In this document: one piece after another, positions 2,964 to 48,399 of the stretch
Layout of the letters: every line of letters starts with the position of its first letter
How positions within the stretch are numbered: position 1 is the first letter of the stretch
NCBI RefSeq assembly: GCF_037975245.1
Contig: NC_092573.1
Span: forward strand, 24,953,265 to 25,017,264
Direction: 5' to 3'
Origin: Apostichopus japonicus
Lineage: Eukaryota; Echinodermata; Holothuroidea; Aspidochirotida; Stichopodidae
DNA length: 64,000 bases
The notes under the pieces: model-generated
Databases searched by the model: none
Told to the model about the DNA's origin: nothing
The model's input: the letters and a program-made list of their open reading frames with translations, nothing else
Translations under genes and position numbers: made by a program

Positions 2964-5900
2964 ATGTATTCATCCATTGTTTTCTGGATCAGTCTTTTAC
3001 TATCTCTTTATTCTCTCACCACTGGATCACCATTATGGGACGCCGAAAATGGTAAGTAGTTTACCTCGTTAAGTTATTTTCTTAGTTATTAACGGAAAAT
3101 TTGTGATTGAACTTCTGTTAAAATTTTAAGACACAAGAGAACATTTATAACCGTTTTGCGTATTAATTTGTCTACAATTTTATACAAAATGTAACATTTC
3201 TTTACTATTCAAATAGCAAAAACGTAATTATTAGTAACTGCAAAACAAATCTCTTAATTCTATTATCAATATTACAATTGTTCTCATGTATTTAGGAGTT
3301 CCGCATTAGACATAATTGATTAACTATTTCTAATATTATTAGGCTAGTCAATGACAGATTTGTGTATCTTAATAACAACAAAGATGAAGATATCCATCCA
3401 TGCTGGAATACGACGTCCAGAATTTATATGACGTCATAATCTTTGGATCCTCATAAATTGTAAATAAAGTTATAATCGTAATATTAATCATTATTTTTAT
3501 TTTCCAGAAATCGAAAACAGACTAGAATTAGAAAACTTCGAGGCTCGATTTTACAGCCAACTAGAAGAAACAGGTAAATGAAATAGTAACTCCATCATAT
3601 TAATTTCTATCTTGTTAAAGAACCGTATAAAGCAATCCACTGCTTGGTTATCAAATCATCTTTTCAATGTCTTTTTAATGAAAGGTAGTGTTTGTGAATT
3701 CAATTTTGTCGAGCACGTCAAATAAAAAAAAAATCAATTATTAAAAAAATAACAAAGACCTAAAGTTAAATATTAGATTGAAAATATATCTGTGTTTCTA
3801 ATATTCCTTGACTATTTTACGTATACAGATCCAAACAGCCCATTGGAAGTCAGAGGAGATCGACCGGGGCAGGCTACTGAACAATCGAGATGTGACGTCA
3901 TCACAGGTGTGCCAAATGACGTCAGGTCAGCTCTTCGACTTAGTTCGTTTTACAGCAAATATACGCATGCGTACAACATTCCTGTTTTGGGATCATTTCG
4001 TGTGTCTGATAGGGCCTTGCAAAGAGCTTGTTACGTCGTTCGTTTCCTACTAGCTGACAGACCAGATCTAAGGCAGGCCATGTACGCCAAATATGGACGG
4101 GTCGCCATCATGGCCACCAACGAAGTAACACAGAACATTCCCGAACATTCCTTTCTGCCACCATTTTGGAACACCCGAGCGAGGGGTCTTGGAGGTACCC
4201 TTCAGATACCCGTGTCTACTGGAGCAGAGGAAAACGTCCTTTGTTTGAGAAGTGACGGATACAGAGAGGACATTTTCCTTCATGAATTTGCTCACGGCAT
4301 TCATAAGATCGCCCTTACAACTGCCGTAGCAGGTTTCAACAGCCGTCTCACCAACGCTTATAACAGCGCCAGAAGACGCGGGCTTTGGCAGAACACGTAC
4401 GCAGACGACACAGTAGATGAGTATTTCGCGGAAGGGGTTCAGAGCTTCTTTAACGTAGAGTCTCCTCCCGTATTCGGAATACACAATGACATCGACACGA
4501 GAGAGGAGCTAGCTGCCTACGATCCTACCCTGTATAACCTAATCAGAGAGGCTTTCCCTTGTATGAACAACATCGTAGACCGTTGTCAAAATCAAGGTAA
4601 GTTAGTCATGTTAATTCAGGTTCAGATTTTCAGTACTTTTGGTTTCTAAAATTCAAAGTAAGTTAGTAACGCTATTCATTAGCGTGATTAGACGACTTTT
4701 CAATAATGAATACACAAATTGATACATTTTCCCAAAACGTTCCCCGTTGTTTGTTTTTCAAGATGACTGAGTACTAATAGGAAATTATTTTAGTTGATTC
4801 CAGTAGTTTACTGCGCAAAATGCCTAACTGCAAGTAATACTCAATGTAATACTCAATGTAATGTAATACTCAATGTATGTAATACAATGTCATACTCAAT
4901 GTAGATATTGTAAAAATAGAGAAAATTGGAGATCCAATGTATACAGTTGCTTTAACAGTTTTCAGTAAGATTAGTATTTTCAACCAAAGAGAAACTACGG
5001 CTGAAAGATACCACAAAACTTCGGTATGAATGTCACAAATAACAAAGTTTCATCAATATATTAGCAATTGCACCTACATATACATAGACACAGGTTGTGC
5101 AAAGGAAATGTACAGTGAAGTTTCTGCTATCGGTGATGCCTCGATTTGCTTATCTTTATAAAATAATTGTTTCAAACTTGGCCTAATGTTCGTGTGTCCT
5201 CCCTTCATTGTTTAAAACTTGTTTAAAAGATTGTTTCAAACTTGTCGTAATGTTCGTGATTCCTCCCTTCTTGACAAACGCTTATTTTTTATATTTATCT
5301 TTTCTGTACTTTAGGTCAAATTAGCAGCCAGCCGTTGAGAATGAACTGTGCAGGGACAAATACTGGAGGTAAAGACAAATATGTTATTTTCTCATAGAAT
5401 TTCAATAGACTGAATCTTGAAACATCCAGGGTGGATTTCTTGCTATTAAACTGGAAACTGTTTTTATCTGTATGGTTTACATAATATATCGATTTTAGAT
5501 TGTTGTTTATATATTTGCATATTTTATCCTGCTATCATGCTAATAAAGCTGCAGACGGTTTGAAGCTATGTATATATACATGGGCGTAGGCAAGGAGGAA
5601 GGGCGAGGGTGGGATCGGGCTATTCGGCGGGGGTGGTTCAATCAAGCCCCATCCTCTTATATCCCTTCGTTTTATAATCTGCAGATTCATTATTTTACCT
5701 AGATGATATTTTTAGTATGAAGTACACTTTAAAAGTAACTCTCCGAGAATACCGTTAAGACAACAGACAATTGATATGGCAATTGTTTAACCTTAGTTTT
5801 TACGTACTCGCTCGAATTGGAAAAAAATATATATCATGTATGTTACTTATAGTACTAAATAACAAAACAAGGTTATGTAAAAATCCCTACTATTTAACTA

Positions 5901-6218
5901 CAAAATTGCTTTGTTGGAACAACAGATGAATCCTAAAACTAACAGCTGATAGAAAACTCTGATCTAACGCATAGTCGGATAAAAGATAAAATTTTGCTTA
6001 AAATATTGTTTCCAAATCAGAATGAGTTCTTCGAACAAAGACATAATAACATTTACAATTATAACATTGTTCTTTCAGGTTCAGGAGGCCGTCCAAGGAA
6101 TCAGTGTGAAGATAGAAACCAGTTCTGTCCTTCTTGGGCTTCTCGGGGTGAATGCCAAAGAAATCCAGCCTACATGTTACCAAACTGTCCACTGAGCTGT
6201 AATCAATGCCAGGGATGA
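2964..6218 (+). CDS. A1: secreted zinc metalloprotease (HEFAH/EYFAE) with C-terminal ShKT domain
   Basis: Five exons, all joined in phase 1 at GT-AG introns: 2964-3051, 3508-3573, 3829-4596, 5315-5368, 6079-6218; 371 aa. Residues 1-21 are a signal peptide. Exon 2 encodes a short charged segment. The catalytic domain fills exon 3 (about residues 72-304). H203-E204-F-A-H207 gives two zinc ligands and the catalytic Glu, and E249 or E253 in D-E-Y-F-A-E is the likely third ligand, a gluzincin-like layout. Exon 4 is an 18-residue linker with one Cys (319). Exon 5 is a ShKT domain with cysteines 335, 342, 351, 362, 366 and 369. The HExxH plus EYFAE combination recalls the lethal-factor-like (M34/ATLF) fold group, but that is inference from motif and spacing. 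I know no gene name. It differs from A2-A4 at residue 67 (T for N) and 332 (R for G). A conserved AATAAA lies at 6,882. Confidence 0.87.
4838..4905. repeat. Short tandem duplication in A1 intron 3
   Basis: The motif TAATACTCAATG is repeated several times here. At the matching place in A3 (about 27,587) it occurs once, although the surrounding intron is almost identical, so this is a recent local expansion in A1. Confidence 0.75.
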
Positions 6219-7800
6219 TTTCCATTCTCGTTTATTGTTAGATCAAATGTTCACAACTTAACGTATCATATTGAGTCGAATTTCCACATTCTAGTGCTAC
6301 AATATAATCCACCATTGAAGGGAAGATAAGGAATCTGAGAACATAATCTGGAACTGTAGTATATCATATCATGAAACGATTAATGTTTAGGCATAGACTT
6401 CAAACGTTTAACAGTAAAAAAAAATAGTAATATTTAATTATATGAGTGCGCAACAAAGTTTCCACCATTGTCTCAGAATTGTATAGTGAATCCTTCTTTG
6501 TACTCGTATTCTAGTATAATTGACTGTACACATACTCACACTCACCCTCATTGGTTTGTACTCAAGAAAGTATGGAAATCAAGTACATAAATATTAGTGT
6601 TAGATAAGTACCTGTTCGTAAAGACTCCAATATACTCGTATTCATTCCAAGGTAAAATTCTACTCATGGTACTCATACTGTTGTACTCATGTTATACAAG
6701 TCTGGTAACTCGATAATTAGGAACATATATGTTAGCTTGTTTGAGAGGTAACCATTTAATTATGAATATTACGTAGTATGTTAGAATACCATTAAGCATG
6801 AGTTGGTTATACATTTTGCATGACATTCACTTACGTGGTTAATCGTACTAAATATTACACATCAGTCAGCGTTTCGTAAGAAATAAATGCAAATATATTG
6901 TTGATAGTTGGGTGAGAGGGGGTGGGGTGAGGAAGGGGGTAAGTTTCATATATTAATCGGTGATAATTGATTCGTGACCTGAGGTATATGTTATACTGTC
7001 TGCGGGAAGGACAAGGTATGGGTAAAAAAATAGTAACTAAAAATCACAATATTTGTCTAGCCAAACTCACTTAATGGACAATTGAACCTGTTTGTAAAAA
7101 AAATCTTAATTCCTCGAAAGTTGTCGAGCCGATTCCCTGTCAGTAGAAAGTGTACACGCGCATGTGCTGTCAAATGAATTTACCCAATCAATCAATGATC
7201 ACGTTTGCATCTGATATGACGTAATTTATTAAATATATATGTTGAAATATATACTATGTTGCAGATGTCATTTTTCTTTTGTATAGTTATTGGCAGGAAT
7301 ACAATATCCTATCTAGGGAAACATTGCAACTTATGCTGTTTGACAAAATACTAGCCTAAACGATGACTTGCATTTAATGATATTGATTATGTTCCACGAA
7401 AATTGAGCAATTAATGATACTATCGGATAATCAACGGCCGGACGCCCGTATGCAATAGAAGCCAATAGGTCAAAATAATTGAGCCCAACCATCAGTCTAA
7501 CATTGACAATAATATGGGCGGTAGTACTCACTGGTAAGTGTTCTGGACGAACTAAAGCTGATTCCTCGTTCGTTTTAGCTATAATTGCAAACGCAATGAA
7601 AGAAAGTGCTATAAAAAAAAGCAAAAACTTATGAAGATATGAGTGATCTTAAACAAAGAAGTCTCTGAGACTAGCGAAACACTGGACAATTAACCTACAG
7701 CAACTTTTTAGAAGGTACTAGGGGACATGACTTACCAGTGACACCATTTGAATGCACTGGCAGTATAGGCTACCATCCCACTCTTACAAATGTGTAAGCC
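6219..7800. other. 3' flank of A1, no gene
   Basis: The likely A1 3' UTR runs to AATAAA at 6,882-6,887, a signal kept at the same offset in all four A copies. Beyond it is a G-rich run (6,908-6,945) and AT-rich spacer. From about 6,700 to 7,740 the sequence is nearly identical to 39,580-40,620 behind A4, closer than to the flank of A3. The 97-codon minus-strand frame at 7,331-7,624 is identical to the one at 40,210-40,503 but is not kept behind A2 or A3, so I do not call it a gene. Confidence 0.6.
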
Positions 7801-7801
7801 A

Positions 7802-8430
7802 ATCAGGGGTCTTTCATCAACTCTAGAAAATGTGAAACTCTGGATGCAATTTAACCGTCTTAAGATGAATGATGAAAAATCGGAGTTTATCGTTTTCGGA
7901 AGCAATCGCCAACTATCAAAGTGCAATACAGACGTTTTATCCATTGGGGACACTCCCGTCCGTCGTACCCATAGTGTGAAGCTACTAGGTGTTTACTTGG
8001 ATGAAACCCTCAATCTCAAACATCATATTTCCATGAAAGCTCGTGCATCAGCCCTCGCCATGTTTAATCTGAAGAAGATCCGGAAATATTTGGACAAGTC
8101 GACATGTCTCAAAATTGCAAATGCCATGATTTTCTCTCATATGGACTATTGCAATGGTCTTTTTATCAACCTCCCGGCCTCCACACTTCATCCCCTACAA
8201 AGGATCCAAAATTACACGGCTAAAATTATTCTCGGCAGATCAAAATATGATAGTGCCTCCGCAACATTGAAGGAGCTGAACATCCTCCCCGTCAATGTCC
8301 GTGCCGAGTACAAGATCCTCCTCCTCGTTTATAAGTGTATACATAATTCAGCACCAGCTTATCTGTCCGAGTTGCTGGAAATTAAGACACCTGGTCGTTC
8401 AACACGCTCGTCAAAGGGCATCCTTCTCAA
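7802..8430 (+). pseudogene. LINE reverse transcriptase C-terminal fragment, interrupted
   Basis: About 210 codons of open frame are left of a 5'-truncated LINE ORF2. The catalytic YxDD region is not present; what remains is the thumb and C-terminal part, with the MNDEKSEFIVFG and IFSHMDYCNGLF segments. The frame is cut after AAG at the 9-bp target duplication and continues at 9,489. It cannot make a working enzyme. Confidence 0.85.
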
Positions 8431-9488
8431 GGAAGCCACTAAATACTAACCCGCGTAGCGGTTCGGTTCATCGGTAAGGATCCCGAGCGAGAATGATCTC
8501 ACCTGACGTCACAGTCTTGCATAACTACGTAGATGCACATGTTGTACATTTCACGTGTACAGTGCGGGTACGAGCTCGTGTAACACGTACGAATTGCCGG
8601 GCCAAGTCCCGCTCGCGATTAAGTAAAAGAGGTGAAAATAGGAGACAAGTACACAAATATATCCAAACGTTACACGGTTTATTCTTGACATTCTAAGTTA
8701 ACAAATGTATATAAGAAAGCTGCAAGAAAGTACTGTTGTATTTATCTTTATATCTCAAGTATAGCAGGTCTCACAAGTTATTACACAGAGTTAACTAACC
8801 TCCAAGACCTGGTTGTGTACATATATCATTTTAAAAACTACAAGTACCGTTTCAAACCCATATATCTATCTTCATCTCAAGTAACAGGTGTCACAAGTTA
8901 TTACAGAGAGTCAACTAACCTCCAAGACCTGGTTGTGTACATATATCATTTTAAAAACTGTGAGTACCGTTTCAAACCCATATATCTATCTTCATCTCAA
9001 GTAACAGGTCTCACAAGTTATTACATAGAGTAAACTAACCTCCTAGACCTGGTTGTGTACAAATATCAAATTTAAAAGCTGCAAAATTCACTTCAAACGT
9101 TTAGATCTATCTTCATTTCAAATAACAGGTCTCACAAGTTATTACATAGAGTCAACTAACCTCCTAGACCTGGTTGTGTACATATATCATTTTAAAAACT
9201 GCAAGTACCGTTTCAAACCGCTATTATATCTATCTTTATCTCGTAGCAGGCCTCACAAGTTGTTACATAGAGTCAACTAACCTCCAAGACCTGGTTGTGT
9301 ACATATATCATTTTAATCTCGTAGCAGGCCCCACAAGTTATTACATAGAGTCAACTAACTTCCGAGACCTGGGCAAAATAACGTAATTCGGGAACCGAGA
9401 GCGCCGAGCACAGTTGCACCCGAAACCGAGTTCCGAGGGCACTCGAAATGGTCCGACCCGCTGTAGGGGTTAGTATTTAGTGGCTTCC
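8431..9488. mobile_element. Non-autonomous DNA transposon with inverted ends and 9-bp target duplication
   Basis: The ends are inverted repeats: GGAAGCCACTAAATACTAAC at 8,431 and its reverse complement ending at 9,488, with weaker pairing for some 40 bp more. The 9-bp sequence CCTTCTCAA flanks it on both sides (8,422-8,430 and 9,489-9,497). Removing the element plus one flank copy restores the LINE reading frame exactly. A 9-bp duplication and long inverted ends suggest a Mutator-like (MULE) element. There is no transposase; the inside is mostly a 120-bp tandem repeat. The family assignment is inference. Confidence 0.82.
8740..9400. repeat. 120-bp tandem repeat inside the DNA transposon
   Basis: The phrase CTCACAAGTTATTACA and its variants recurs at about 8,770, 8,890, 9,010, 9,131, 9,252 and 9,330. 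There are five near-complete units of about 120 bp plus one shortened unit. Short open frames across it are by-products of the repeat. Confidence 0.9.
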
Positions 9489-10215
9489 CCTTCTCAAGGT
9501 TCCTTTCACACGCCGCAAATGTTTCGCAGGCCGCTCTTTCAGCGTCGCTGGCCCTAGACTTTGAAACGCTCTCCCCGTCGACACGAGAAATTCGAAGACC
9601 ATCAGAACTTTTAAATCGTTTTTATAATTGTTTTGTTTGTTCAGCGCCATTGAGGTTTTTTTTTTACAGTAATGTGCGCTTTACCAAGTGTTACCACCTT
9701 AACCTTAACCTTAAGCCTATTACCCTCCTTCCAGATGAGAGTCAACGATCACATGAAGCCATACAAGCATTACCAGTTAAGCGGTTTCCAATTTCATTGG
9801 ACAGGGGGAAATGAAATGTCCGACCAAACAGTATTTCTGCGTTTTATTAACGGCTTTCAATGTAACAGTTAGGAAGCTGAAAATTGTTCATGTCATCCAA
9901 ATAACAAAGATGACAACCATCTAATGTTGTTCTGTCCGAATCGTGTTTGCATATAGGCCTACAAATCGGTCAACAGATTAGAAGTTGTTTAACGCATTTC
10001 ACTCTCTATAATGTTCATATAAGATGCCCAATTAAAGCGAATTGCGAACAAAAACCATTGGCTATCAATAAACCGTGTTCAATTATCATCAAATAACAGA
10101 AAATTCCAAGGATTGCTACCTTTTGTCCCTAGAATTTAAGTCTCCAAGTCAACGCTGCGCTGTAGTAATGTTAAACTTTGTACCGCCGTCTGAGATCGCA
10201 GCTCTGATAAATCAT

Positions 10216-10509
10216 TAATTCAATATTATCAATTCGATATTATCATTTTCAATATTATCAATTCAATATCAATTCAATATCAATTCAATTCAATTCAATT
10301 CAATATTATCAATAAATCAATTCGAGTCACACCCAGATTAATGTATGTCGTCCAGTTACAGAGTTGTTGACAATTAACAATTTATAATCATGGACGTTAA
10401 ATATGAATGTGAGAGACTGACTTCTGTCAGCTTTCGGCTTTGATAAGCCAATGAGGCTTTTCCGCGAGTTCCGGCTTGCAGGAGGATCTAATATACATAC
10501 ATACATCAT
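10216..10509 (-). mobile_element. Short unit-1-specific insertion, retroposon-like
   Basis: Units 3 and 4 read straight from GATAAATCAT into CTCGTAGTTC (about 30,990 and 41,165; 41,165 has one change). In unit 1, ~294 bp intervene, flanked by ATCAT on both sides. The left end is an AATTC/AATATTATC simple repeat, which would be the tail of an element lying on the minus strand. I recognise no family; the small minus-strand frame at 10,327-10,521 is not similar to anything I know. Confidence 0.55.
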
Positions 10510-10879
10510 CTCGTAGTTCATTTAAGCAAAATCCTTGGTTATTCTTTGTTATTCTTTGTGGAGTGGAGTTAATATAAAGTATGGACAAAGTGGGAAAAGA
10601 AAATCTGAAAGCTTCACTTTTTGGGAGTTTAGCCCAGAATTATCAATATATATAAATCAGGCTATGCCTAAATGATACCTCTTGCTTTGGAATGATTGAA
10701 GATCTAAGCAGTTTGTAATAATTTTGCTTTACAAAGTATCAGCCTTCCTCAAAAAATAAAATACACTTATGAAGGAACCACATGTTCGCAATAGAATATC
10801 TCATGTTGTGCCTCTAAATAATTTATTCAGAATATTGACAGCTGTTTTATATATAGATTTCAAGTAATACAACGTAAAG

Positions 10880-12145: not shown

Positions 12146-13291
12146 TTAACATACGTTACAACTCTGTCTACACGATATCCTCATATACAGTGGATTTCGC
12201 GTACACTCTCCGTTACTCGCCCACCTCGCACAGTTGACGTTGTCGTCTGCACAGTTTGATGAAGACCGTCTGCACTGCTGACAACTTACGGGACAGTTCG
12301 GTAGCATCCAAGCAGGATTCCTCGAACACTCTCCTCTTGCAGCCCAAGCTGAACAGTTGGGATGAGTTTCTTCACAATCGGGGTTGGTTTCGTCTCCTTC
12401 CGTCTCGGTGGTATCCTCACATCCATAGTAACGATTGATTTTAAGAATATCAGTAGCGCTGAAGTCGTTTCTGTTGCCTATGGAAACTCCCGCCTGTCGA
12501 GGAACTATAGTCGGTCGTCCGTTGCGGCTGAAGGCATTCATTGGATAATGCATGATAGAGTAATAGTCATAACGGGTTTGTAAATGATCAATAGTGTCCT
12601 GGTTATACCTGACAAAGTTGTACTCTAATCCAGACTGGATGTTTTGGTAATAAACGGTTACAAATTGATCTCTGTCGGTTCTTGTTTGTTCGTGTTGAAA
12701 TCCTACAGCATGCATTAGTTCGTGCATGATGGTTCCTCTGTGAAAGTTACAAGCGCCCCCAACCGACAATTCTTGGCGTCCTCCTCTTCGACCAACCGCC
12801 GAAAAGCAACCCTGTCTTGGTACGATGTGAACGTAATCTCTTTGTCCATTCCAAGGAGTAAACCGAATACAGGTTGTTTGGTGGTAACGGTTAATGGCGG
12901 CAAGGATTCTTTGTCGAGCACCGGCGTCGAAGGAACGGTCGATAAAATACGGCACGACACCTCCTGGCCACCGTACATTACGGTTACGAACAGCATTCTG
13001 GGCAACCTGAGAAACGTTGTAGTCGACTTTGATGTCGCCCTCTATCAGATAATGTTCAATTCCTGAGTCAATGTTTTGATTTTCTTTAAATATGTACTCC
13101 ATACTGTCCTCCTCCTGGTTGGTACCAAAGATGCTCAGTTCGAGTGGTGTTGGCAGCTTGGAGATAACCTCAAAACTGGGCACTTGATTCAACTCGCCAT
13201 TAACAAGATCAATCGGGTTGTCTCTGCTCAGTGGTATACAGGACGAGTAGCTCACCAGCACTATGGTTAAAATAAATGATACAATCTTCAT
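12146..13291 (-). CDS. B1: secreted astacin metalloprotease with two ShKT domains
   Basis: Single exon, 381 aa. Residues 1-18 are a signal peptide. The propeptide (19 to ~99) contains I-E-G-D; D86 matches the aspartate switch that blocks the zinc in astacin zymogens. The mature domain starts near residue 100 (NRNVRWPGGVVPYFI). It has the zinc site H190-E-L-M-H194-A-V-G-F-Q-H200-E and the Met-turn S-I-M247-H-Y249. C141-C291 and C162-C181 match the two conserved astacin disulfides. ShKT 1 (cysteines 306, 313, 322, 333, 337, 340) and ShKT 2 (347, 354, 363, 374, 378, 381) follow, the last Cys being the C-terminus. All catalytic residues are present. Astacins cleave extracellular proteins or peptides; the substrate is unknown. 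It is convergent with A1 and divergent from A2. Residue 372 is I where the other copies have T. Confidence 0.94.
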   Translation of the reverse strand: MKIVSFILTIVLVSYSSCIPLSRDNPIDLVNGELNQVPSFEVISKLPTPLELSIFGTNQEEDSMEYIFKENQNIDSGIEHYLIEGDIKVDYNVSQVAQNAVRNRNVRWPGGVVPYFIDRSFDAGARQRILAAINRYHQTTCIRFTPWNGQRDYVHIVPRQGCFSAVGRRGGRQELSVGGACNFHRGTIMHELMHAVGFQHEQTRTDRDQFVTVYYQNIQSGLEYNFVRYNQDTIDHLQTRYDYYSIMHYPMNAFSRNGRPTIVPRQAGVSIGNRNDFSATDILKINRYYGCEDTTETEGDETNPDCEETHPNCSAWAARGECSRNPAWMLPNCPVSCQQCRRSSSNCADDNVNCARWASNGECTRNPLYMRISCRQSCNVC

Positions 13292-13390
13292 CTTGATGTA
13301 CGGCTCTCTGTATGTTCTGTCAGTGATTGATAACGTCCTCGGTAGCTGAAGATTGGTGATTCTATGACGGTTTGTCGGGCTGTGTGTCGG

Positions 13391-13683
13391 TATTTATTAG
13401 TTTGAACAAGTTCAACAACTTCCGATGACTGGCTTAAACGGCTAGCCTTTCAATGACCTCGTTTGTGACGTTCAATCCTTATTTGGTTAATGTACTTACA
13501 CTCTACCAAGTAAAATCTAGTCACGTAATGGGGTTGTCTTTGATTTTTTCGACCCTGGGAATCGTCATATCTAAATGTGAACAACTAATGGTATGGTAAC
13601 AAAGTGAGTCAATTGATTGTGTTTTACTGCTTGGTCATATTTACGAGATTATATCCTTACATGGCTCAATTTATGTGACGTCA
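13391..13683 (-). promoter_or_regulatory. B1 upstream region: TATA-like box, palindrome and CRE
   Basis: On the minus strand TAATAAATA lies at 13,399-13,391, about 100 bp before the ATG. Next to it is the perfect palindrome TTGAACAAGTTCAA (13,402-13,415), and TGACGTCA lies at 13,676-13,683. The TATA-like box is found upstream of all five B copies; the 14-bp palindrome is intact at B1, B2 and B5 and broken at B3 and B4. Confidence 0.5.
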
Positions 13684-15325
13684 CAGCAAGGGAAAATCAT
13701 GTGTTCCTTGGTCACTCAGTGACCCTGCAAAAACTCAAGATGGTTGGTTATCGTTAATTTCAGGTATAAATGGTTATAGCAGTAATATGATCCATATTCC
13801 CCACACCCCTCATCCCAGCCCTAGAAATTTAAGTTTCAATACGAGCTCGATATCGTTTTATTAACAAGAATGACCAAAAGCAACAGATATTCCGGGCGGG
13901 GTGTTTCATTGTCTGATTTATTGTACTGTGCTTAAACATTATGTTTAGTGCTAACTGTATTGCTATATTGTATTTAACTGGCACAAAAATATGAGAACTA
14001 AATACGTTAATAACGTTAGGTTAGAATCGAAGACCTTTTTTTATATATCGCTGCTTCAGTGTCTTCATATAACCATGGACTTGTCGTTCGATTCAATCAC
14101 TATGGAAAGATAGCAGGAAAGAGCTATTAGGACCAGTCAGTCCTATATGCATCTTGCCGTGTTAGAAGATGATGTTTAGGTGTATATTTATAATCCTTTC
14201 GTCAGTAGTAAGTCAGTGTACTTATTTATTCGTCGGTCTGTCCAAACTGTGCACATATCCATCATACTTCATTAACCACCTTCTTCTTTGGCTTTTCCCA
14301 AATGTTACAAACGCATAGATACCATATAATTGATAATGTAACTTTGAATGCCGCAGTAGAAAGGCTACTTTCCCCTGTAACAATAATCACAACAATCATA
14401 AACATTCTACTAATGTGACGATGTAAAACCTCCGGCCGATCCTCACAACAACAAGGGGGACAAAGTAATGTATAATATTCCTGTCGTACGTTAGTTTCTA
14501 AACTTTCCTTTTCATTTACGTAAGAAGATAACTTTGAACCAGTACCATTGCCGGATTTTACCATTGTTCAAGATGGTCCGGACAAACGGCTCCCGGTATA
14601 GGGTGCACAAAAAGCCAAAAGGAACAAAGGCAGGGTGCAGGGAAGAAATGACCTGTTCAAATATTTCACCGAATATCTTTAAAATAGAGGATATATCAAA
14701 ATAGTAGATCAATAGAAAGTATGATTGAAATTGTTATTGTATATACAGACACGTTAACTGTGCACCTGAAGTAATTAACACGTTCATACAATGCCTGTGT
14801 TGGTTGCGTTGAACATCGAATTGATGTCTGTCCCGGGGCCACGGAAAATGTTAATTCGACCCTGTCCAGTGGATACGTCATCATATTGTAAGATTTTATT
14901 TAAAATATCCTGTGCATAAACCACACGCACCCCTCCTAACAATATCATGGAGTCTCAACCCCAGCGCCCACCTTCTCAGTGCAGACAGTAATTATAAATT
15001 AAATCCTAGTGTATAGTACATAAATGTATAATATGTGTGTGCGTAACAACCTAAACAGTCGAAAATTCTTCAACATTGTTTGAAAAGATATGAAATATAG
15101 CACCATTTTGCATCTGAGCACCTTACCAATTTTCACCAACATTTCTAAGGGTGCCCCCTCCTCTCGATGAAATAATATATTAGCCCCCCCCCCCCCTCCT
15201 CCTACCCCAAATAGAAAAATGGTGGTCTCGCTGCTGTACAACTGGCGAGTGATAAAGAGGATAATGAATTTGCGAGACTCCAGTATTCCATCTATGGATC
15301 TTTGTCTATAAAGTTCATTCATGAG
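13684..15325. other. B1-A2 divergent spacer, type I
   Basis: No gene seen. It is repeated at B2-A3 (23.9-25.5 kb) and partly left of A1. A block at 14,262-14,564 keeps a minus-strand frame that is similar in the B2-A3 copy but has lengths and ends that differ, so I treat it as conserved spacer. A C-run lies near 15,184-15,197. Confidence 0.5.
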
Positions 15326-15494
15326 TGACGTCATGTATGACGGAAGCAATTAAGATAAATACCTCCCCTGACCTCTATCACGATTAATTGTCAGCTGATA
15401 TCTAGGACACCCATCGACTATTACCTTCATCCTTAATACAGCAGAATCATTGAGTGACGTGTCCATGTTTTCAGGTTCTGAAAAGATATTTAAA
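15326..15494 (+). promoter_or_regulatory. A2 core promoter
   Basis: TGACGTCA is at 15,326-15,333 and the TATA position reads TATTTAAA (15,487-15,494) instead of TATATAAA. This may weaken the box relative to A1. Confidence 0.55.
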
Positions 15495-15566
15495 CTTTCA
15501 GCAAAGTAAATTCATTCAAATTTTGAACATTCGTAGAAGAGACGACAAGCAAGCTAATTCAACAAG

Positions 15567-22307: not shown

Positions 22308-23453
22308 TTAACATACGTTACAACTTTGTCTACACGATGTCCTCATGTATAGTGGATTTCGCGTACACTCTCCGTTACTCGCCCACCTCGCACAGTTGAC
22401 GTTGTCGTCTGCACAGTTTGATGATGACGGTCTGCACTGCTGACAACTAACGGGACAGTTCGGCAGCATCCAAGCAGGATTCCTGGAACACTCTCCTCTT
22501 GCAGCCCAAGCTGAACAGTTGGGATGAGTTTCTTCACAATCGGGGTTGGTTTCGTCTCCTTCCGTCTCGGTGGTATCCTCACATTCATAGTAACGATTGA
22601 TTTTAAGAATATCAGTAGCGCTGAAGTCGTTTCTGTTGCCTATGGAAACTCCCGCCTGTCGAGGTACTATAGTCGGTCGTCCGTTGCGGCTGAAGGCATT
22701 CATTGGATAATGCATGATAGAGTAATAGTCATAACGGGTTTGTAAATGATCAATTGTGTCCTGGTTATACCTGACAAAGTTGTATTCTAATCCAGACTGG
22801 ATGTTTTGGTAATAAACGGTGACAAATTGATCTCTGTCGGTTCTTGTTTGTTCGTGTTGAAATCCTACAGCATGCATTAGTTCGTGCATGATGGTTCCTC
22901 TGTGAAAGTTACAGGCGCCCCCAACCGACAGTTCTTGGCGTCCTCCTCTTCGACCTACGGCCGAAAAACAACCCTGTCTTGGTACGATGTGGACGTAATC
23001 TCTTTGTCCATTCCAAGGAGTAAACCGAATACAGGTTGTTTGATGGTAACGGTCAATGGCGGCAAGGATTCTTTGTCGAGCACCGGCGTCGAAGGAACGG
23101 TCGATAAAATACGGCACGACACCTCCTGGCCACCGTACATTACGGTTACGGACAGCATTCTGGGCAACCTGAGAAACGTTGTAGTCGACTTTGATGTCGC
23201 CCTCTATCAGATAATGTTCAATTCCTGAGTCAATGTTTTGATTTTCTTTAAATATGTACTCCATACTGTCCTCCTCCTGGTTGGTACCAAAGATGTTCAG
23301 TTCGAGTGGTGTTGGCAGCTTGGAGTTAACCTCAAAACTGGGCACTTGATTCAACTCGGTATTAACAAGATCAATCGGGTTGTCTCTGCTCAGTGGTATA
23401 CATGATGAGTAGCTCACCAGCACTATGGTTAAAATTACCGATGCGACCTTCAT
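22308..23453 (-). CDS. B2: secreted astacin metalloprotease with two ShKT domains
   Basis: Intact single-exon 381-aa copy with every zinc ligand, the Met-turn, the aspartate switch and all 16 conserved cysteines as in B1. The signal peptide begins MKVASVIL. Distinctive residues are T32 and N53 in the propeptide, D134 in the protease and E290 in place of G just before the last astacin Cys. It is convergent with A2 and divergent from A3, whose start lies 2.26 kb away. Confidence 0.94.
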   Translation of the reverse strand: MKVASVILTIVLVSYSSCIPLSRDNPIDLVNTELNQVPSFEVNSKLPTPLELNIFGTNQEEDSMEYIFKENQNIDSGIEHYLIEGDIKVDYNVSQVAQNAVRNRNVRWPGGVVPYFIDRSFDAGARQRILAAIDRYHQTTCIRFTPWNGQRDYVHIVPRQGCFSAVGRRGGRQELSVGGACNFHRGTIMHELMHAVGFQHEQTRTDRDQFVTVYYQNIQSGLEYNFVRYNQDTIDHLQTRYDYYSIMHYPMNAFSRNGRPTIVPRQAGVSIGNRNDFSATDILKINRYYECEDTTETEGDETNPDCEETHPNCSAWAARGECSRNPAWMLPNCPVSCQQCRPSSSNCADDNVNCARWASNGECTRNPLYMRTSCRQSCNVC

Positions 23454-23543
23454 CTTGTCTCCGTTTGTTCTGTCAGTGATTGATAACGTCTTTAGTAGCT
23501 GAAGATTGATGTTTCTATGACGGTTAGTCGAGCTGTGTGTGGG

Positions 23544-23568
23544 TATTTATTAGTTTGAACAAGTTCAA
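23544..23568 (-). promoter_or_regulatory. B2 TATA-like box and 14-bp palindrome
   Basis: TAATAAATA (minus strand, 23,552-23,544) adjoins TTGAACAAGTTCAA (23,555-23,568), as at B1. The upstream CRE position is changed to TGACGTAA here. Confidence 0.45.
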
Positions 23569-25471
23569 CAACTTCCGATGACTGGCCTAAACGGCTAACC
23601 TTTCAATGACCTCGTTTGTGACGTTCAATCCATATTTGGTTAATGTACTTACACTCTACCAAGTAAAGTCTAGTCACGTAATGGAGTTGTCTTTGATTTT
23701 TTTCGACCCTGAGAATCGTCATATCTAAATGTGAACAACTAATGGTATGGTAACAAAGTGAGTCAATGGATTGTGTTTTACTGCTTGGTCATATTTACGA
23801 GATTATATCGTTACATGGCTCAATTTATGTGACGTAACAGCAAGGGACAATCATGTGTTCCTTGGTCACTCAGTGACCCTGGAAAAACTCGAGATGGTTG
23901 GTTATCGTTATGACTGATTTCAGGTATCAATGGTTGTAGCAGTAACACGATCCATCTTCCCCACACGACTCATCCCAGCCCTAGAAATTAAAGTTTCAAT
24001 ACGAGCTCCATATCTTTTAATTAACAAGAATGACCAAAAGCAACAGATATTCCGGGTGTGAGTGTTTCATTGTCTGATTTATTGTACTGTGCTTAAACAT
24101 ATAATTATAAAAATTATGTTTAGTTCTAACTGTATTGCTATATTGTATTTAACTTGTGATAACATATGAGAACTAAATATGAAATTGAAAATAGAAAAAT
24201 AACGTTTGGTTAAAGTCTGAGACCTTTTTTTCGTATATCGCTGCTTCAGTGTCTTCATATAACCATGGACTTGTCATTCGATTCAGTCACTATGGAAAGA
24301 TAGCAGGAAAGAGCTATTAGGACCATTCAGTCCTATATGCATCTTGCTGTGTTAGATGATGATTTTTTAGATGTATATTTATAATCCTTTCGTCAGTAGT
24401 AGTCAGTGTACTTATTTGTTTCGTCGGTCTGTCCAAACTGTGCACATATCCATCATACTTCATTAACCACCTTCTTCTTTGGCTTTTCCCAAATGTTACA
24501 AACGCATAGATACCATAATTGATAATGTAACATTGAATGCCGCAGTAAAAAGGCTACTTTCCCCTGTAAAAATAATCACAACAATCATAAACATTCTACT
24601 AATGTGACGATGTAAAACCTCCGGCCGATCCTCACAACAACAACAAGGGAGACAAAGTAATGTATAATATTCCTGTCGTACGTTAGTTTCTAAACTTTCC
24701 TTTTCATTTACGTAAGAAGATAACTTTGAACCAGTACCATTGCCGGATTTTACCATTGTTCAAGATGGTCCGGACAAACGGCTCCCGGTATAGGGTGCGC
24801 AAAAAGTCAGAAGGAACAAAGGCAGGGTGCAGGGAAGAAATGACCTGTTCAAATATTTCAACGATCATCTTCAAAATAGAGGATATATCAAAATAGTAGA
24901 TCAATAGAAAGTATGATTGAGATTGTAATTGTATATACAGACACGTTAACTGTGCACCTGAAGTAATTAACACGTTCATACAATGCCTGTGTTGGTTGCG
25001 TTGAACATCGAATTGATGTCTGTCCCGGGGCCACGGAAAATGTTAATTCGACCCTGTCCAGTGGATACGTCATCATATTGTAAGATTTTATTTAAAATAT
25101 CCTGTGCATAAACCACATGCACCCCTCCTAACAATATCATGGGGTCTCAACCCCAGCGCCCACCTACTCAGTGCAGACAGTAATTATAAATTAAATCCTA
25201 GTGCATAGTACATAAATGTAAACAGTCGAAAATTCTTCAACAATGTTTCAAAAGATATGAAATATAGCACCATTTTGCATCTGAGCACCTTACCAATTTT
25301 CACCAACATTTCTAAGGGTGCCCCTCCTCTCTATGAAATAATATATTAGCCCCCCCCCCCCTCCTCCTACCACAAATAGAAAAATGCTGGTCTCGTGATA
25401 AAGAGGATAATGAATTTGCGAGACTCCAGTATTCCATTTATGGATCTTTGTCTGTAAAGCTCATTCATGAG
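23569..25471. other. B2-A3 divergent spacer, type I
   Basis: No gene; closely matches the B1-A2 spacer with small insertions and deletions. A C-run lies near 25,351-25,362. Confidence 0.5.
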
Positions 25472-25649
25472 TGACGTCATGTATTACGGAAGCAATTAAG
25501 ATAAATACCTCCACTGACCTCTATCTCGATTAATTGTCAGCTGATATCTAGGAAACCCATCGACTATTATCTTCATCCTTAATACAGCAGAATCATTGAG
25601 TGACGTGTCCATGTTTTCAGGTTCTGAAAAGATATATAAGATATATAAG
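25472..25649 (+). promoter_or_regulatory. A3 core promoter with doubled TATA motif
   Basis: TGACGTCA lies at 25,472-25,479. The TATA element is duplicated as two TATATAAG copies (25,633-25,640 and 25,642-25,649), replacing the AACTTTCAGCAAAG sequence that follows the box in the other copies. Confidence 0.55.
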
Positions 25650-25713
25650 TCTGTAAATTCATTCAAATTTTGAACATTCGTAGAAGAGACTACAAGCAAG
25701 CTATTTCAACAAG

Positions 25714-32814: not shown

Positions 32815-33960
32815 TTAACATACGTTACAACTTTGTCTACACGATGTCCTCATGTACAGTGGATTTCGCGTACACTCTCCGTTACTCGCCCACCTCGCAC
32901 AGTTGACGTTGTCGTCTGCACAGTTTGATGAAGACGGTCTGCACTGCTGACAACTAACGGGACAGTTCGGTAGCATCCAAGCAGGATTCCTCGAACACTC
33001 TCCTCTTGCAGCCCAAGCTGAACAGTTGGGATGAGTTTCTTCACAATCGGGGTTGGTTTCGTCTCCTTCCGTCTCTGTTGTACCCTCACATCCATAGTAA
33101 CGATTAATTTTAAGAATATCAGTAGCGCTGAAGTCGTTTCTGTTGCCTATGGAAACTCCCGCCTGTCGAGGAACTATAGTCGGTCGTCCGTTGCGGCTGA
33201 AGGCATTCATTGGATAATGCATGATAGAGTAATAGTCATAACGGGTTTGTAAATGATCAATAGTGTCCTGGTTATACCTGACAAAGTTGTACTCTAATCC
33301 AGACTGGATGTTTTGGTAATAAACGGTGACAAATTGATCTCTGTCGGTTCTTGTTTGTTCGTGTTGAAATCCTACAGCATGCATTAGTTCGTGCATGATG
33401 GTTCCTCTGTGAAAGTTACAGGCGCCCCCAACCGACAATTCTTGGCGTCCTCCTCTTCGACCTACGGCCGAAAAACAACCCTGTCTTGGTACGATGTGGA
33501 CGTAATCTCTTTGTCCATTCCAAGGAGTAAACCGAATACAGGTTGTTTGATGGTAACGGTCAATGGCGGCAAGGATTCTTTGTCGAGCACCGGCGTCGAA
33601 GGAACGGTCGATAAAATACGGCACGACACCTCCTGGCCACCGTACATTACGGTTACGAACAGCATTCTGGGCAACCTGAGAAACGTTGTAGTCGACTTTG
33701 ATGTCGCCCTCTATCAGATAATGTTCAATTCCTGAGTCAATGTTTTGATTTTCTTTAAATATGTACTCCATACTGTCCTCCTCCTGGTTGGTACCAAAGA
33801 TGCTCAGTTCGAGTGGTGTTGGCAGCTTGGAGTTAACCTCAAAACTGGGCACTTGATTCAACTCGCCATTAACAAGATCAATCGGGTTGTCTCTGCTCAG
33901 TGGTATACAGGACGAGTAGCTCACCAGCACTATGGTTAAAATTAATGATGCAATCTTCAT
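32815..33960 (-). CDS. B3: secreted astacin metalloprotease with two ShKT domains
   Basis: Intact single-exon 381-aa copy. All catalytic residues, the aspartate switch and the disulfide cysteines match B1. It has MKIASLIL in the signal peptide, G32 and N43 in the propeptide, D134 in the protease and G293 (CEGTTE) in the short linker before ShKT 1. It is convergent with A3 and divergent from A4, 2.15 kb away. Confidence 0.94.
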   Translation of the reverse strand: MKIASLILTIVLVSYSSCIPLSRDNPIDLVNGELNQVPSFEVNSKLPTPLELSIFGTNQEEDSMEYIFKENQNIDSGIEHYLIEGDIKVDYNVSQVAQNAVRNRNVRWPGGVVPYFIDRSFDAGARQRILAAIDRYHQTTCIRFTPWNGQRDYVHIVPRQGCFSAVGRRGGRQELSVGGACNFHRGTIMHELMHAVGFQHEQTRTDRDQFVTVYYQNIQSGLEYNFVRYNQDTIDHLQTRYDYYSIMHYPMNAFSRNGRPTIVPRQAGVSIGNRNDFSATDILKINRYYGCEGTTETEGDETNPDCEETHPNCSAWAARGECSRNPAWMLPNCPVSCQQCRPSSSNCADDNVNCARWASNGECTRNPLYMRTSCRQSCNVC

Positions 33961-34059
33961 CTTGATGTACGGCTCTCTGTTTGTTCTGTCAGTGATTGAT
34001 AACGTCTTCAGTAGCTGAAGATTGGTGATTCTATGACGGTTTGTCGAGCTGTGTGTTGG

Positions 34060-34366
34060 TATTTATTAGTTTGAACAAGTCAACAACTTCCGATGACTGG
34101 CCTAAATGGCGAGCCTTGCAATTAGTTTGACCTCGTTTGTGACATTTCAGTCCTTATTTGGTTAACGTTTTCTTACTCTACCAAGTAAAGTCTTGTCACG
34201 TAATGGAGTTGTCTGATTTTTTCGACCCTGGGAAGCGTCATATCTAAATGCAAACATCAAATGGTACAAGCTAAAGAATTAAGTCGTTAGTCAATGAAAT
34301 TTGTTTTACTGCTTGGTCATACTATACAAGAATATGTCCTTAGATGGTTCATTTTATGTGACGTCA
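34060..34366 (-). promoter_or_regulatory. B3 upstream region
   Basis: TAATAAATA (minus strand, 34,068-34,060) and TGACGTCA (34,359-34,366) are kept. The neighbouring 14-bp palindrome is broken by a one-base loss. Confidence 0.45.
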
Positions 34367-35355
34367 CAGCAGGGAAATCATCCCTTTGTTGGTCACACAA
34401 TGAATCTGGATTTATTTTAGAGATGGCTGATTTTCCTCTTGAATAATTCGATGTGTACGTCGCCGTAATATAACCCCCCCGCCCCTTGAACGTGATACAC
34501 TTTTTCTCTACATGTTACATTTAGTGACACAAGAGGGTTGGTCATCAATGGCGATATCATGTGGATTAGGATTATCTTTGGTAGTCATCTTAACCGTGAT
34601 ATTCAAAATGGGGATTGTAAGTGTCGCCAACTATTTGTGTGGTTTTGAAACAATTCGGAAGAACAAGAAATTATCCATATTGTTTTGGAGTGAAATAAAT
34701 AGGAAAAATTTGGAACATAGCTAAAATTCAAAAGTTGCAAAATATAAAGAATATGTTACACCTTAGCAACCTTGGTAATATCAACAATTCTCAAAGAGGA
34801 GGAGATTCCTCCTTCCCGTAGATCCTTGTAAAACTTGAGGAAGAAAGTTTGAATACCAAAGATCTAAACGAATGTTTCTTCAAAGTACAAACCCTTAAAG
34901 TTAAAGCATTGGAATATTTCGTTTGTGGAATAAACGAGAATGATAAAACAACAGATTTCTGATGTTTTTTCTGTTCTTTTTTTTTTGTATCGCTCTGTTT
35001 CTACAGATATAATAGACCAAGGAATACATACATAAAACAATATGTGGTTGAAATGAACCCGTGTTGTGATGACAATCTGAATTTTTTATTTCTACAAAGT
35101 TTGTTCGTGCTATGTTCGTTACCTCAGTATCTTGTTTCTCTGCTATGAAGTATCTTCGCTGTTTTAGGGAATTTGAAACAGTATTTAAAATTCTTAGTGT
35201 CAATCATTCTAATATATGATATGTGAGGATGGAAGTAATTGTTAAAATTTAGGGAGAGGACCCAAGTTAGTCCAAATGACAATAATTGGTTATATTAAAC
35301 TGTATGTATTCTGATGCACTTAAACTGTATGCAAACCAACCACAACCATTCTAAT

Positions 35356-35451
<96 letters not shown>

Positions 35452-35845
35452 GTGTACCCTTTGCAGTTTATTGTGCAGTTTAACGGCATAACCTCCATTT
35501 GAACTGTTTGCATTTATATGAACTAACCTCTTGTGACAGACATTCAGACGGTATATATGAATTATGCAGACGTAATCATTACTTTGCAATCTTAAGTATT
35601 GTTCCTTTAGTCACCGGTTGTTTGAAACGTTCAAGTTTGTAGGTATAGCTTATCGTCACACATGTCATTCAGTTGCTGGTGTATAAGTAAGTGTTCTTGT
35701 TAATTATTTCTGTTTTACTGTTAATCTGTACAATCTACTTCATCACTGATTCATTTACCATTTTGCTTTTAACAGTTTAAACTGTGTGATTGTTTAAGCT
35801 AAAGACCCATTTATGGATCTTTTGTCTATAAAGCTCATTCATGGG
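34367..35845. repeat. B3-A4 divergent spacer, type II
   Basis: Unlike the B1-A2 and B2-A3 spacers over most of its length. It is shared with the region upstream of B4 (44.2-45.47 kb) and, inverted, upstream of B5 (45.89-47.1 kb). A (TA)n run broken by TTTATA and AAATA lies at 35,356-35,451. No gene is called. Confidence 0.6.
35356..35451. repeat. (TA)n microsatellite
   Basis: Nearly pure alternating TA with a few A or T interruptions; it lies in the type II spacer. Confidence 0.95.
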
Positions 35846-36032
35846 TGACGTCTTATATTGCGGAAACAATCAAGATAAATACATCCCATGACCTCTATCA
35901 CTATTAATTGTCAGCTGATATCTAGGACACCCCTCGACTAATATCTTCATCATACATCAGAGTCAGCAGAATGATACAGCAGAATTATTCAGTGACGTGT
36001 ATATGTTTTCAGGTTCTAAAAAGATTTATAAA
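35846..36032 (+). promoter_or_regulatory. A4 core promoter, diverged
   Basis: The CRE position reads TGACGTCT (35,846-35,853) and the TATA position TTTATAAA (36,025-36,032). The E-box CAGCTG is kept. This is the most diverged of the four A promoters. Confidence 0.5.
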
Positions 36033-36108
36033 CTTTCAGCAAGTCTTTAAATTCATTTCAATTTGAAACATTCGCAGAAGAGACGACAAGAAAAGCTATT
36101 TCAACAAA

Positions 36109-42980: not shown

Positions 42981-44126
42981 TTAACATACGTTACAACTCT
43001 GTCTACACGATGTCCTCATGTACAGTGGATTTCGCGTACACTCTCCGTTACTCGCCCACCTTGCACAGTTGACGTTGTCGTCTGCACAATTTGATGAAGA
43101 CGGTCTGCACTGCTGACAACTAACGGGACAGTTTGGTAGCATCCAAGCAGGATTCCTCGAACACTCCCCACTTGCAGCCCACGCTGAACAGTTGGGATGA
43201 GTTTCTTCACAATCGGGGTTGGTTTCGTCTCCTTCCGTCTCGGTGGTATCCTCACATCCATAATAGCGATTAATTTTAAGAATATCAGTAGCGCTGAAGT
43301 CGTTTCTGTTGCCTATGGAAACTCCCGCCTGTCGAGGTACTATAGTCGGTCGTCCGTTGCGGCTGAAGGCATTCATTGGATAATGCATGATAGAGTAATA
43401 GTCATAACGGGTTTGTAAATGATCAATCGTGTCCTGGTTATACCTGACAAAGTTGTACTCTAATCCAGACTGGATGTTTTGGTAATAAACGGTGACAAAT
43501 TGGTCTCTGTCGGTTCTTGTTTGTTCGTGTTGAAATCCTACAGCATGCATTAGTTCGTGCATGATGGTTCCTCTGTGAAAGTTACAGGTGCCCCCAACTG
43601 ACAGTTCTTGGCGTCCTCCTCTTCGACCAACCGCCGAAAAGCAACCCTGTCTAGGTACGATGTGGACGTAATCTCTTTGTCCATTCCAAGGAGTAAACCG
43701 AATACAGGTTGTTTGATGGTAACGGTTAATGGCGGCAAGGATTCTTTGTCGAGCACCGGCGTCGAAGGAACGGTCGATAAAATACGGCACGACACCTCCT
43801 GGCCATCGTACATTACGGTTACGAACAGCATTCTGGGCAACCTGAGAAACGTTGTAGTCGACTTTGATGTCGCCCTCTATCAGATAATGTTCAACTCCTG
43901 AGTCAATTTTTTTATTTTCTTTAAATATGTACTCCATACTGTCTTCCTCCTGGTTGGTACCAAAGATGCTCAGTTCGAGGGGTGTTGGCAGCTTGGAGTT
44001 AACCTCAAAATTGGGCACTTTATTCAACTCGGCATTAATAAGATCAATCGGGTTGTCTCTGCTCAGTGGTATACAGGATGAGTAGCTCACCAGCACTATG
44101 GTTAAAATTACCGATGCGATCTTCAT
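42981..44126 (-). CDS. B4: secreted astacin metalloprotease with two ShKT domains
   Basis: Intact single-exon 381-aa copy with all catalytic residues. It has the most changed propeptide (L-I-N-A-E-L-N-K-V-P-N-F, and K-K at 72-73), V78 and T180 beside the astacin Cys 181. It shares A32, V78 and S319 (WAASGEC) with B5, which supports B5 being derived from B4 or from a common copy. It lies head to head with B5. Confidence 0.94.
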   Translation of the reverse strand: MKIASVILTIVLVSYSSCIPLSRDNPIDLINAELNKVPNFEVNSKLPTPLELSIFGTNQEEDSMEYIFKENKKIDSGVEHYLIEGDIKVDYNVSQVAQNAVRNRNVRWPGGVVPYFIDRSFDAGARQRILAAINRYHQTTCIRFTPWNGQRDYVHIVPRQGCFSAVGRRGGRQELSVGGTCNFHRGTIMHELMHAVGFQHEQTRTDRDQFVTVYYQNIQSGLEYNFVRYNQDTIDHLQTRYDYYSIMHYPMNAFSRNGRPTIVPRQAGVSIGNRNDFSATDILKINRYYGCEDTTETEGDETNPDCEETHPNCSAWAASGECSRNPAWMLPNCPVSCQQCRPSSSNCADDNVNCARWASNGECTRNPLYMRTSCRQSCNVC

Positions 44127-45752: not shown

Positions 45753-45889
45753 CTCTCTTTGTTCTCATATCGCTAAGATCATTGGAATCCTTCATAAACT
45801 TCGTTATTTCTTACCATCACATACACTCTTAAAACATTATACGTTTCCCTTATGAGCACGGCATCCGCTTACCCAACATTGTTGTTGAT
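45471..45889. other. Centre of the inverted repeat
   Basis: It matches neither arm. A (TA)n run lies at 45,717-45,749. No gene is seen. Confidence 0.5.
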
Positions 45890-47129: not shown

Positions 47130-47155
47130 TTGAACTTGTTCAAACTAATAAATAC
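47130..47155 (+). promoter_or_regulatory. B5 palindrome and TATA-like box
   Basis: TTGAACTTGTTCAA (47,130-47,143) is followed after three bases by TAATAAATA (47,147-47,155), about 100 bp before the ATG. The CRE is about 395 bp upstream of the ATG. Confidence 0.5.
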
Positions 47156-47253
47156 CGACACACAGCTCGACAAACCGTCATAGAATCACCAATCTTCAGC
47201 TACTGAAGACGTTATCAATCACTGACAGAACAAACGGAGAGACGTACACCAAG

Positions 47254-48399
47254 ATGAAGATTGTATCAGTAATTTTAACCTTAGTGCTGGTGAGCTACTC
47301 ATCCTGTATACCACTGAGCAGAGAAAACCAGATTGATCTTGTTAATGCCGAGTTAAATCAATTGCCCAGTTTTGAGGTTACCTCCAAGCTGCCAACACCC
47401 CTCGAACTGAGCATCTTTGGTACCAACCAGGAGGAGGACAGTATGGAGTACATATTTAAAGAAAATCAAAACATTGACTCAGGAGTTGAACATTATCTGA
47501 TAGAGGGAGACATCAAAGTCGACTACAACGTTTCTCAGGTTGCCCAGAATGCTGTTCGTAACCGTAATGTACGGTGGCCAGGAGGTGTCGTGCCGTATTT
47601 TATCGACCGTTCCTTCGACGCCGGTGCTCGACAAAGAATCCTTGCCGCCATTGACCGTTACCATCAAACAACCTGTATTCGGTTTACTCCTTGGAATGGA
47701 CAAAGAGATTACGTCCACATCGTACCTAGACAGGGTTGCTTTTCGGCCGTTGGTCGAAGAGGAGGACGTCAAGAACTGTCAGTTGGGGGCGCTTGTAACT
47801 TTCACAGAGGAACCATCATGCACGAACTAATGCATGCTGTAGGATTTCAACACGAACAAACAAGAACCGACAGAGATCAATTTGTCACCGTTTATTACCA
47901 AAACATCCAGTCTGGATTAGAATACAACTTTGTCAGGTATAACCAGGACACAATTGATCATTTACAAACCCGCTATGACTATTACTCTATCATGCATTAT
48001 CCAATGAATGCCTTCAGCCGCAACGGACGACCGACTATAGTACCTCGACAGGCGGGAGTTTCCATAGGCAACAGAAACGACTTCAGTGCTACTGATATTC
48101 TTAAAATCAATCGTTACTATGGATGTGAGGATACCACCGAGACGGGAGGAGACGAAACCAACCCCGATTGTGAAGAAACTCATCCCAACTGCTCAGCGTG
48201 GGCTGCAAGTGGAGAGTGTTCAAGGAATCCTGCTTGGATGCTACCGAACTGTCCCGTTAGTTGTCAGCAGTGCAGACGGTCATCCTCAAACTGTGCAGAC
48301 GACAACGTCAACTGTGCGAGGTGGGCGAGTAACGGAGAGTGTACGCGAAATCCACTATACATGAGGACATCGTGTAGACAGAGTTGTAACGTATGTTAA
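47254..48399 (+). CDS. B5: secreted astacin metalloprotease with two ShKT domains, inverted copy
   Basis: The only B copy on the plus strand: single exon, 381 aa. H190-E-L-M-H194 with H200, Met-turn M247 and Y249, the aspartate switch D86 and all ShKT cysteines are intact. It has E24-N-Q-I in place of D-N-P-I at the mature signal-peptide end, L37 and T43 in the propeptide, G298 (T-E-T-G-G-D) in the linker and S319 shared with B4. The likely poly(A) signal AATAAA is at 49,270-49,275, about 870 bp past the stop. It has no A partner; it lies head to head with B4. Confidence 0.94.
   Translation: MKIVSVILTLVLVSYSSCIPLSRENQIDLVNAELNQLPSFEVTSKLPTPLELSIFGTNQEEDSMEYIFKENQNIDSGVEHYLIEGDIKVDYNVSQVAQNAVRNRNVRWPGGVVPYFIDRSFDAGARQRILAAIDRYHQTTCIRFTPWNGQRDYVHIVPRQGCFSAVGRRGGRQELSVGGACNFHRGTIMHELMHAVGFQHEQTRTDRDQFVTVYYQNIQSGLEYNFVRYNQDTIDHLQTRYDYYSIMHYPMNAFSRNGRPTIVPRQAGVSIGNRNDFSATDILKINRYYGCEDTTETGGDETNPDCEETHPNCSAWAASGECSRNPAWMLPNCPVSCQQCRRSSSNCADDNVNCARWASNGECTRNPLYMRTSCRQSCNVC

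Follow-up and report, generated by a model that had tools for sequence, protein, structure and literature searches.

Head-to-head metallopeptidase gene pairs amplified in tandem in a sea cucumber: an ShKT-astacin beside an ShKT-bearing peptidase of likely bacterial origin

Why do two metalloprotease genes of different families alternate along one stretch of a sea cucumber genome, both ending in the same ShKT module, and where did each come from? The question is raised by a window of 64,000 nucleotides from Apostichopus japonicus (NC_092573.1; G000:C13:24953265-25017264, from an assembly of 35 contigs that totals 671,581,487 bases), which carries repeated copies of a peptidase gene marked by the motif HEFAH (gene A) and of an astacin gene (gene B). 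A first-pass annotation of this DNA had proposed that the two families are unrelated but co-amplified, that the ShKT module was exchanged between them and that the pair forms a two-enzyme secreted system. The reading that we prefer, at a probability of about 60%, is a tandem array of a two-gene unit whose predicted products, both secreted zinc endopeptidases, would work together; the two genes lie head to head, the catalytic domain of A having come from bacteria and B being an ShKT-astacin.

The window holds four A and five B copies, all intact, which alternate across 46 kb with a sixth B (B0) just to the left at window positions -2597 to -3742, in the order B0, then A1 B1 A2 B2 A3 B3 A4 B4, then B5. 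Exon 1 of the A copies starts at 2964, 15567, 25714 and 36109, always on the plus strand, and these copies follow one another as direct repeats at 12.6, 10.1 and 10.2 kb. The B copies have their start codons at 13291, 23453, 33960 and 44126 on the minus strand and at 47254 on the plus strand, with direct-repeat spacings of 10.2, 10.5 and 10.2 kb. The A and B copies are tandem duplicates: when the window and the adjoining 30 kb on its left were compared with themselves, array pieces that aligned over more than 600 bp were 77-97% identical. B5 is an inverted duplicate that closes the array without an A partner (inverted repeat arms 96-97% complementary), so that the alternation described by the first-pass annotation, which we could follow copy by copy, ends at 44 kb. 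In the 26 kb read to the left of B0, tblastn (E<=1e-4) gave no additional copy of either gene.

Each of B0 to B3 stands head to head with the next A in the array. At the three inner junctions the ATG-ATG distance is 2276 bp for B1-A2 (13292..15566, a candidate shared promoter region), 2261 bp for B2-A3 (23454..25713) and 2149 bp for B3-A4 (33961..36108), and the outer junctions measure 5561 bp (B0-A1) and 3128 bp (B4-B5). The first repeat unit owes its greater length mainly to extra sequence (7803-10569), which includes a 120-bp tandem repeat and an open reading frame (7769-8449) that resembles a retrotransposon reverse transcriptase by eye and has no Pfam match. Rfam returned nothing in the window at gathering score.

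Gene A, modelled from the sequence alone, has five exons encoding 371-373 residues and four introns, all of phase 1 and GT-AG. The predicted exons lie at 2964-3051, 3508-3573, 3829-4596, 5315-5368 and 6079-6218 in A1 (371 residues); at 15567-15654, 16114-16179, 16435-17202, 17803-17856 and 18578-18717 in A2; at 25714-25801, 26260-26325, 26581-27348, 28012-28065 and 28777-28916 in A3; and at 36109-36202, 36518-36583, 36826-37593, 38163-38216 and 38958-39097 in A4 (373 residues, exon 1 being two codons longer). Exon 1 encodes a leader that is hydrophobic by sequence, exon 3 (3829..4596 in A1) the catalytic domain and exon 5 (6079..6218 in A1; Pfam ShK, 1.2e-9) a single ShKT. HEFAH and DEYFAEG are kept in all four copies, and A1 carries HExxH followed by a Tyr and ExxAE (H203, E204, H207, Y242, E249 and E253 in A1 numbering), ligand roles among these residues being assigned by homology. 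The catalytic domain opens with an RGD (Arg-Gly-Asp) tripeptide (EVRGDRPG; window 3829-3900 in A1) in all four A proteins. Pairwise ratios of nonsynonymous to synonymous substitution rates (dN/dS, Nei-Gojobori) are 0.12-0.33 in the six A pairs, with few differences (13 to 34) per pair, and 0.08-0.17 in the 15 B pairs, which speaks for copies that are probably functional. Contamination by bacterial DNA as the source of A was ruled out, since the gene is split into five exons by GT-AG introns and lies in a contig of 26.8 Mb.

A is predicted to be a secreted peptidase of the gluzincin type, with a catalytic domain that has no Pfam model of its own. Its best identity to bacterial proteins is 51%, and the relatives found here outside the A. 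japonicus genome are all bacterial, in searches of bacterial and also viral collections: they occur in 24 of 377 genomes of the phylum of Enhygromyxa and in Alcanivorax. In the viral collection A alone matched no stretch, and the alignment of the A family made one match, 35% over 57 residues. In an alignment with 23 bacterial rows, 16 of these were 38-51% identical to A1 and the other seven 22-30%. An unrooted tree has a branch that splits A1, A4 and a second A-type gene, AL, from all bacterial sequences (support 99.7/100), and another that joins A1 with A4 (98/100). The bacterial relatives (loci L015-L020 and L071-L093) are uncharacterised peptidases of the same catalytic family, several of them with N-termini that look secretion- or lipoprotein-like by eye; unlike the multi-exon A they are single-frame genes, and their recognised accessory modules are Big_5, ricin lectin or VHL beta where A has ShKT. 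A bacterial origin of A is likely from these comparisons.

Two side observations concern the bacterial members. One, at L074:212-883 on the plus strand in a member of the Enhygromyxa phylum, has also lost the HExxH and a zinc-ligand Glu (VQTFAS, GAYFAEG). In 3 of 25, among them L072 and L082, a VHL beta-like domain flanks the catalytic domain. The beta domain of VHL binds hydroxyproline, and by analogy such modules could point to proline-rich substrates. The Svx peptidase of Pectobacterium was weighed as a parallel for hydroxyproline-rich substrates (PMC13164431).

Beyond this family, the catalytic domain of A appears to be distantly related to the superfamily of Pro-Pro endopeptidases (PPEP) and lethal factor (ATLF, M34). 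PPEP-1/Zmp1, PPEP-3 and ATLF share with A the co-linear HExxH, Tyr and ExxAE motifs, match the A family as profiles at 1e-5 to 1e-4 and gave the best structural rows; against solved structures the family profile reached 1.5e-5 for 9g0j and 1.1e-4 for 2n6j, and the single A1 sequence had no match. Unlike them, A carries the signature EENxLC ... HEFAH, has an ShKT at its end and does not reach the Pfam cut-off.

AL (C13:23836526-23844107, locus L056) lies about 1.1 Mb from the array. Its exons, which from their order and strand we infer to be one gene, encode two LDLa, one ShKT, a catalytic-like domain of 250 residues and three further ShKTs. The catalytic-like domain is 49% identical to that of A, and by eye its exon has its 3' end at the same place and in the same phase. 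Its frame is open, and HEFAH has become RALAQ, the zinc-ligand Glu Ser and the Tyr Val, so that five catalytic residues are missing, while the last Glu of ExxAE is retained; AL is thus an apparent secreted pseudoenzyme. At the position of the RGD tripeptide AL reads NVGQRPG. With its four ShKTs, AL demonstrates that an A-type gene can bear ShKTs without an adjoining B.

Gene B, judged by its motifs and domain scores, is an ordinary astacin (MEROPS M12A). B1 (12146..13291, minus strand) is an intronless coding sequence for an astacin zymogen of 381 residues that matches Pfam Astacin at 2.3e-63 (PF01400, about 214 bits against a cut-off of 22.5) and ShK twice (ShKT1, 12272-12379; ShKT2, 12149-12256, both on the minus strand). 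An astacin domain with two ShKTs is likewise encoded on the minus strand by B2 (22308..23453), B3 (32815..33960) and B4 (42981..44126), and the inverted copy B5 occupies 47254..48399 on the plus strand. As A has no Astacin match at E<=1, the claim of two unrelated families holds. The zinc motif HExxHxxGxxH reads HELMHAVGFQH in all six B copies, SIMHY is present in all six, and EXXRXDRD reads EQTRTDRD in the five copies of the window (the last two motifs as defined in PMC9848320). B has a hydrophobic leader, intact catalytic motifs and a prodomain in which the aspartate-switch motif takes a variant form, FXGDI reading IEGDI (F to I) in 6/6 copies.

Of the astacin regions retrieved, the one most similar to B lies on contig C3 (tblastn, 55% over 60 residues at E 3e-18 and 44% over 75 at E 1e-15); its catalytic region matches B in separate pieces and is therefore split by introns. 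B would accordingly be an intronless derivative of an ShKT-astacin, arisen by retroposition or intron loss. The C3 region itself (C3:28101394-28123724, L051-L053, minus strand) apparently holds a single astacin gene of several exons, with eight or more exons for ShKTs after it. ShKT-astacins, including Hydra HMP2 and HAS7 and Mytilus ShKT8, are described from many phyla in the available part of PMC9848320, echinoderms not being among those given there; B shares with these proteins the astacin signature and C-terminal ShKTs and differs from them in its intronless coding sequence and in its tandem amplification with an unrelated peptidase.

Do A and B belong together? A joint secreted system of two enzymes is plausible from the array, because the head-to-head pairs were kept through duplication, all copies are intact and dN/dS is low in both genes. 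Upstream regions are conserved among the A copies and among the B copies. In the 450 bp upstream of the start, A copies have 2-4 TGACG half-sites and B copies 3-5, against a background of 63 in 40,000 flanking bases and of 325 in 5,000 random 450-bp windows with three or more. Perfect TGACGTCA palindromes occur 18 times in the window (0.84 expected), many of them as copies of the same sites, and full TGACGTCA sites lie within 700 bp upstream of three of the four A and three of the six B copies; others fall within exon 3 and intron 1 of A. Because one copy is not independent of another and the motif was picked post hoc, the enrichment is a hint only, and shared cAMP response element (CRE) sites were not accepted as proof of co-regulation.

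Three other explanations have to be considered together with a set of results that weigh against the preferred reading. That an ShKT module was exchanged between neighbouring A and B, as the first-pass annotation had it, strikes us as quite improbable. The comparison drew on 32 ShKT domains, 22 of them distinct (at least 30 genome matches to PF01549 plus two from tblastn; A1 35.3 and B1 59.9 bits, cut-off 20.9), from the array and AL, C3:28.10-28.12 Mb, C13:1.91 Mb and C3:21.76 Mb. A and B adjoin, and the ShKT of A and the first ShKT of B (B0-B3 form) are identical at 23 of 36 residues (63.9%), the joint highest value for A, with a short MLPNCP stretch in common; the DNA identity of A-ShKT is higher to B-ShKT1 (64.8%) than to the third ShKT of AL (58.3%), and tblastn ranks B (4e-12) before AL (4e-10). 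However, AL ShKT3 likewise shares 23 of 36 residues with A; the sole residue private to A and B among the 23, relative to 17 other distinct ShKTs, is the Q before the last Cys; the codon agrees at 11 and differs at 12 of the shared residues, in the A-B and A-AL comparisons alike; and AL has its ShKTs with no B. The reported motif W-A-x-R-G-E-C-x-R-N-P-A is real in A and B, except that B4 and B5 have S for R (WAASGEC), and the common spacing C-x6-C-x8-C-x10-C-x3-C-x2-C, also confirmed, recurs in 12 of the 16 other distinct ShKTs examined from the genome and is therefore the norm of the module and no mark of the pair. The maximum-likelihood trees that the annotation had suggested as a check left A-ShKT and B-ShKT1 apart, with low supports. 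A forced A+B1 clade cost 6.5 log units and was kept by the approximately unbiased (AU) test (p 0.169), versus 1.6 log units for A+AL3 (p 0.305), whereas grouping A with the complete set of four ShKTs of AL cost 20.4 log units and was rejected (p 0.015), so that the history of ShKTs within the A lineage is not simple. A module of 36 residues cannot settle this history, but nothing here calls for an exchange, and any exchange would be old; the tail common to A and B is, on these comparisons, a widespread module and no proof of swapping.

A doubtful but more serious alternative is passive hitchhiking, in which chance brought A and B together and unequal crossing-over then copied them, with no function in common. 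An existing tandem unit amplifies both genes whatever they do, and B5 was copied without A. Against the preferred reading itself, close head-to-head pairing holds at three junctions of the array, the B0-A1 gap being wide and B5 having no A. Hitchhiking sits poorly, on the other hand, with copies of A and B that are all intact and of low dN/dS, and the small number of ShKT gene types (a lower bound) in a 671-Mb genome makes chance adjacency unlikely, an argument made after the fact. It is unlikely, too, on searches for relatives that covered bacterial and viral collections, that A goes back by vertical descent to an old gene of animals or eukaryotes; in favour of this view, A and AL are already 50% different and by eye have the 3' end and phase of the catalytic exon in common, so that the gene is no very recent arrival. 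Vertical inheritance is countered by A1 being as near to its closest bacterial sequence (50.7%) as to AL (49.4%), and by the absence from Pfam, a library that covers eukaryotes, of any model that fits the catalytic domain above cut-off. Many inner bacterial nodes of the tree are weakly supported. The family assignment meets resistance as well: the spliced A1 protein matches ShK alone in Pfam at E<=0.01, and A scores 16.0 bits against ATLF (PF07737), below the gathering cut-off of 27.4, for which reason we call A a distant relative and do not place it in PF07737; AL has no ATLF match in Pfam. Structure models of A were weak (predicted local distance difference test, pLDDT, 51.1 for the first and 59.8 for the second), a plain Foldseek search of the A model against PDB gave nothing at E<=0.001 (best E 0.1), and VIA Z for the model stays below 8.

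Under the preferred reading of a cooperating pair, an ancestor would have acquired the catalytic domain from bacteria; set in an exon of phase 1 next to exons for ShKTs, the captured domain would have given rise to at least the A lineage and the catalytically dead LDLa/ShKT paralogue AL. Independently, an ShKT-astacin would have lost its introns and come to lie head to head with A, after which the pair was amplified. The same cells would express both genes from the intergenic region that they share and export the products, and cleavage close to the NRNVRWPGG junction would activate B. Through their ShKT tails both enzymes would be anchored to an extracellular or luminal target, a role that may resemble that of the Ig-like, ricin-lectin and VHL-like modules in some bacterial relatives of A, and the two different specificities would jointly degrade extracellular protein. 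A bolder version, in which the sea cucumber captured a Pro-Pro-endopeptidase-like enzyme, fused it to ShKT and derived from it an active, amplified A and a dead AL (a possible decoy or regulator), with A paired with B against a proline-rich extracellular protein such as collagen, perhaps in digestion within the gut, in evisceration or in softening of the body wall, is a long shot.

Elsewhere in the window, at least three SRCR exons (Pfam) and a hydrophobic segment resembling a membrane helix at about 58.5 kb mark a scavenger-receptor-like gene at 53607-58767 on the plus strand. An unplaced contig of the assembly (G000:C29, 31,219 bp) contains several COX1 pieces and is probably misassembled or a nuclear mitochondrial copy. 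Contig C35 (16,099 bp) encodes a COX1 that makes sense when AAA is translated as Asn (table 9), with a short ORF, taken to be nad4L, and cox2 behind it; this code and gene order are those of an echinoderm. No paper on the array, or on animal members of the A family, came up in our literature search; the available text of PMC13228809 does not mention astacin, ShK or metalloprotease, and that of PMC5638244 does not mention astacin or ShK.

The main interest of the locus appears to lie in A, a bacterial-type, ShKT-bearing and amplified animal peptidase with a dead paralogue. It ties a metallopeptidase family of bacterial type that lacks a Pfam model to an animal genome, in a multi-exon, amplified form, and the pseudoenzyme AL offers a comparison for the active-type A. 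The case also cautions against reading domain exchange into the likeness of two ShKTs at consensus positions. Finally, A and B are candidate metalloproteinases of sea cucumber tissue, in which autolysis and evisceration are of practical interest.

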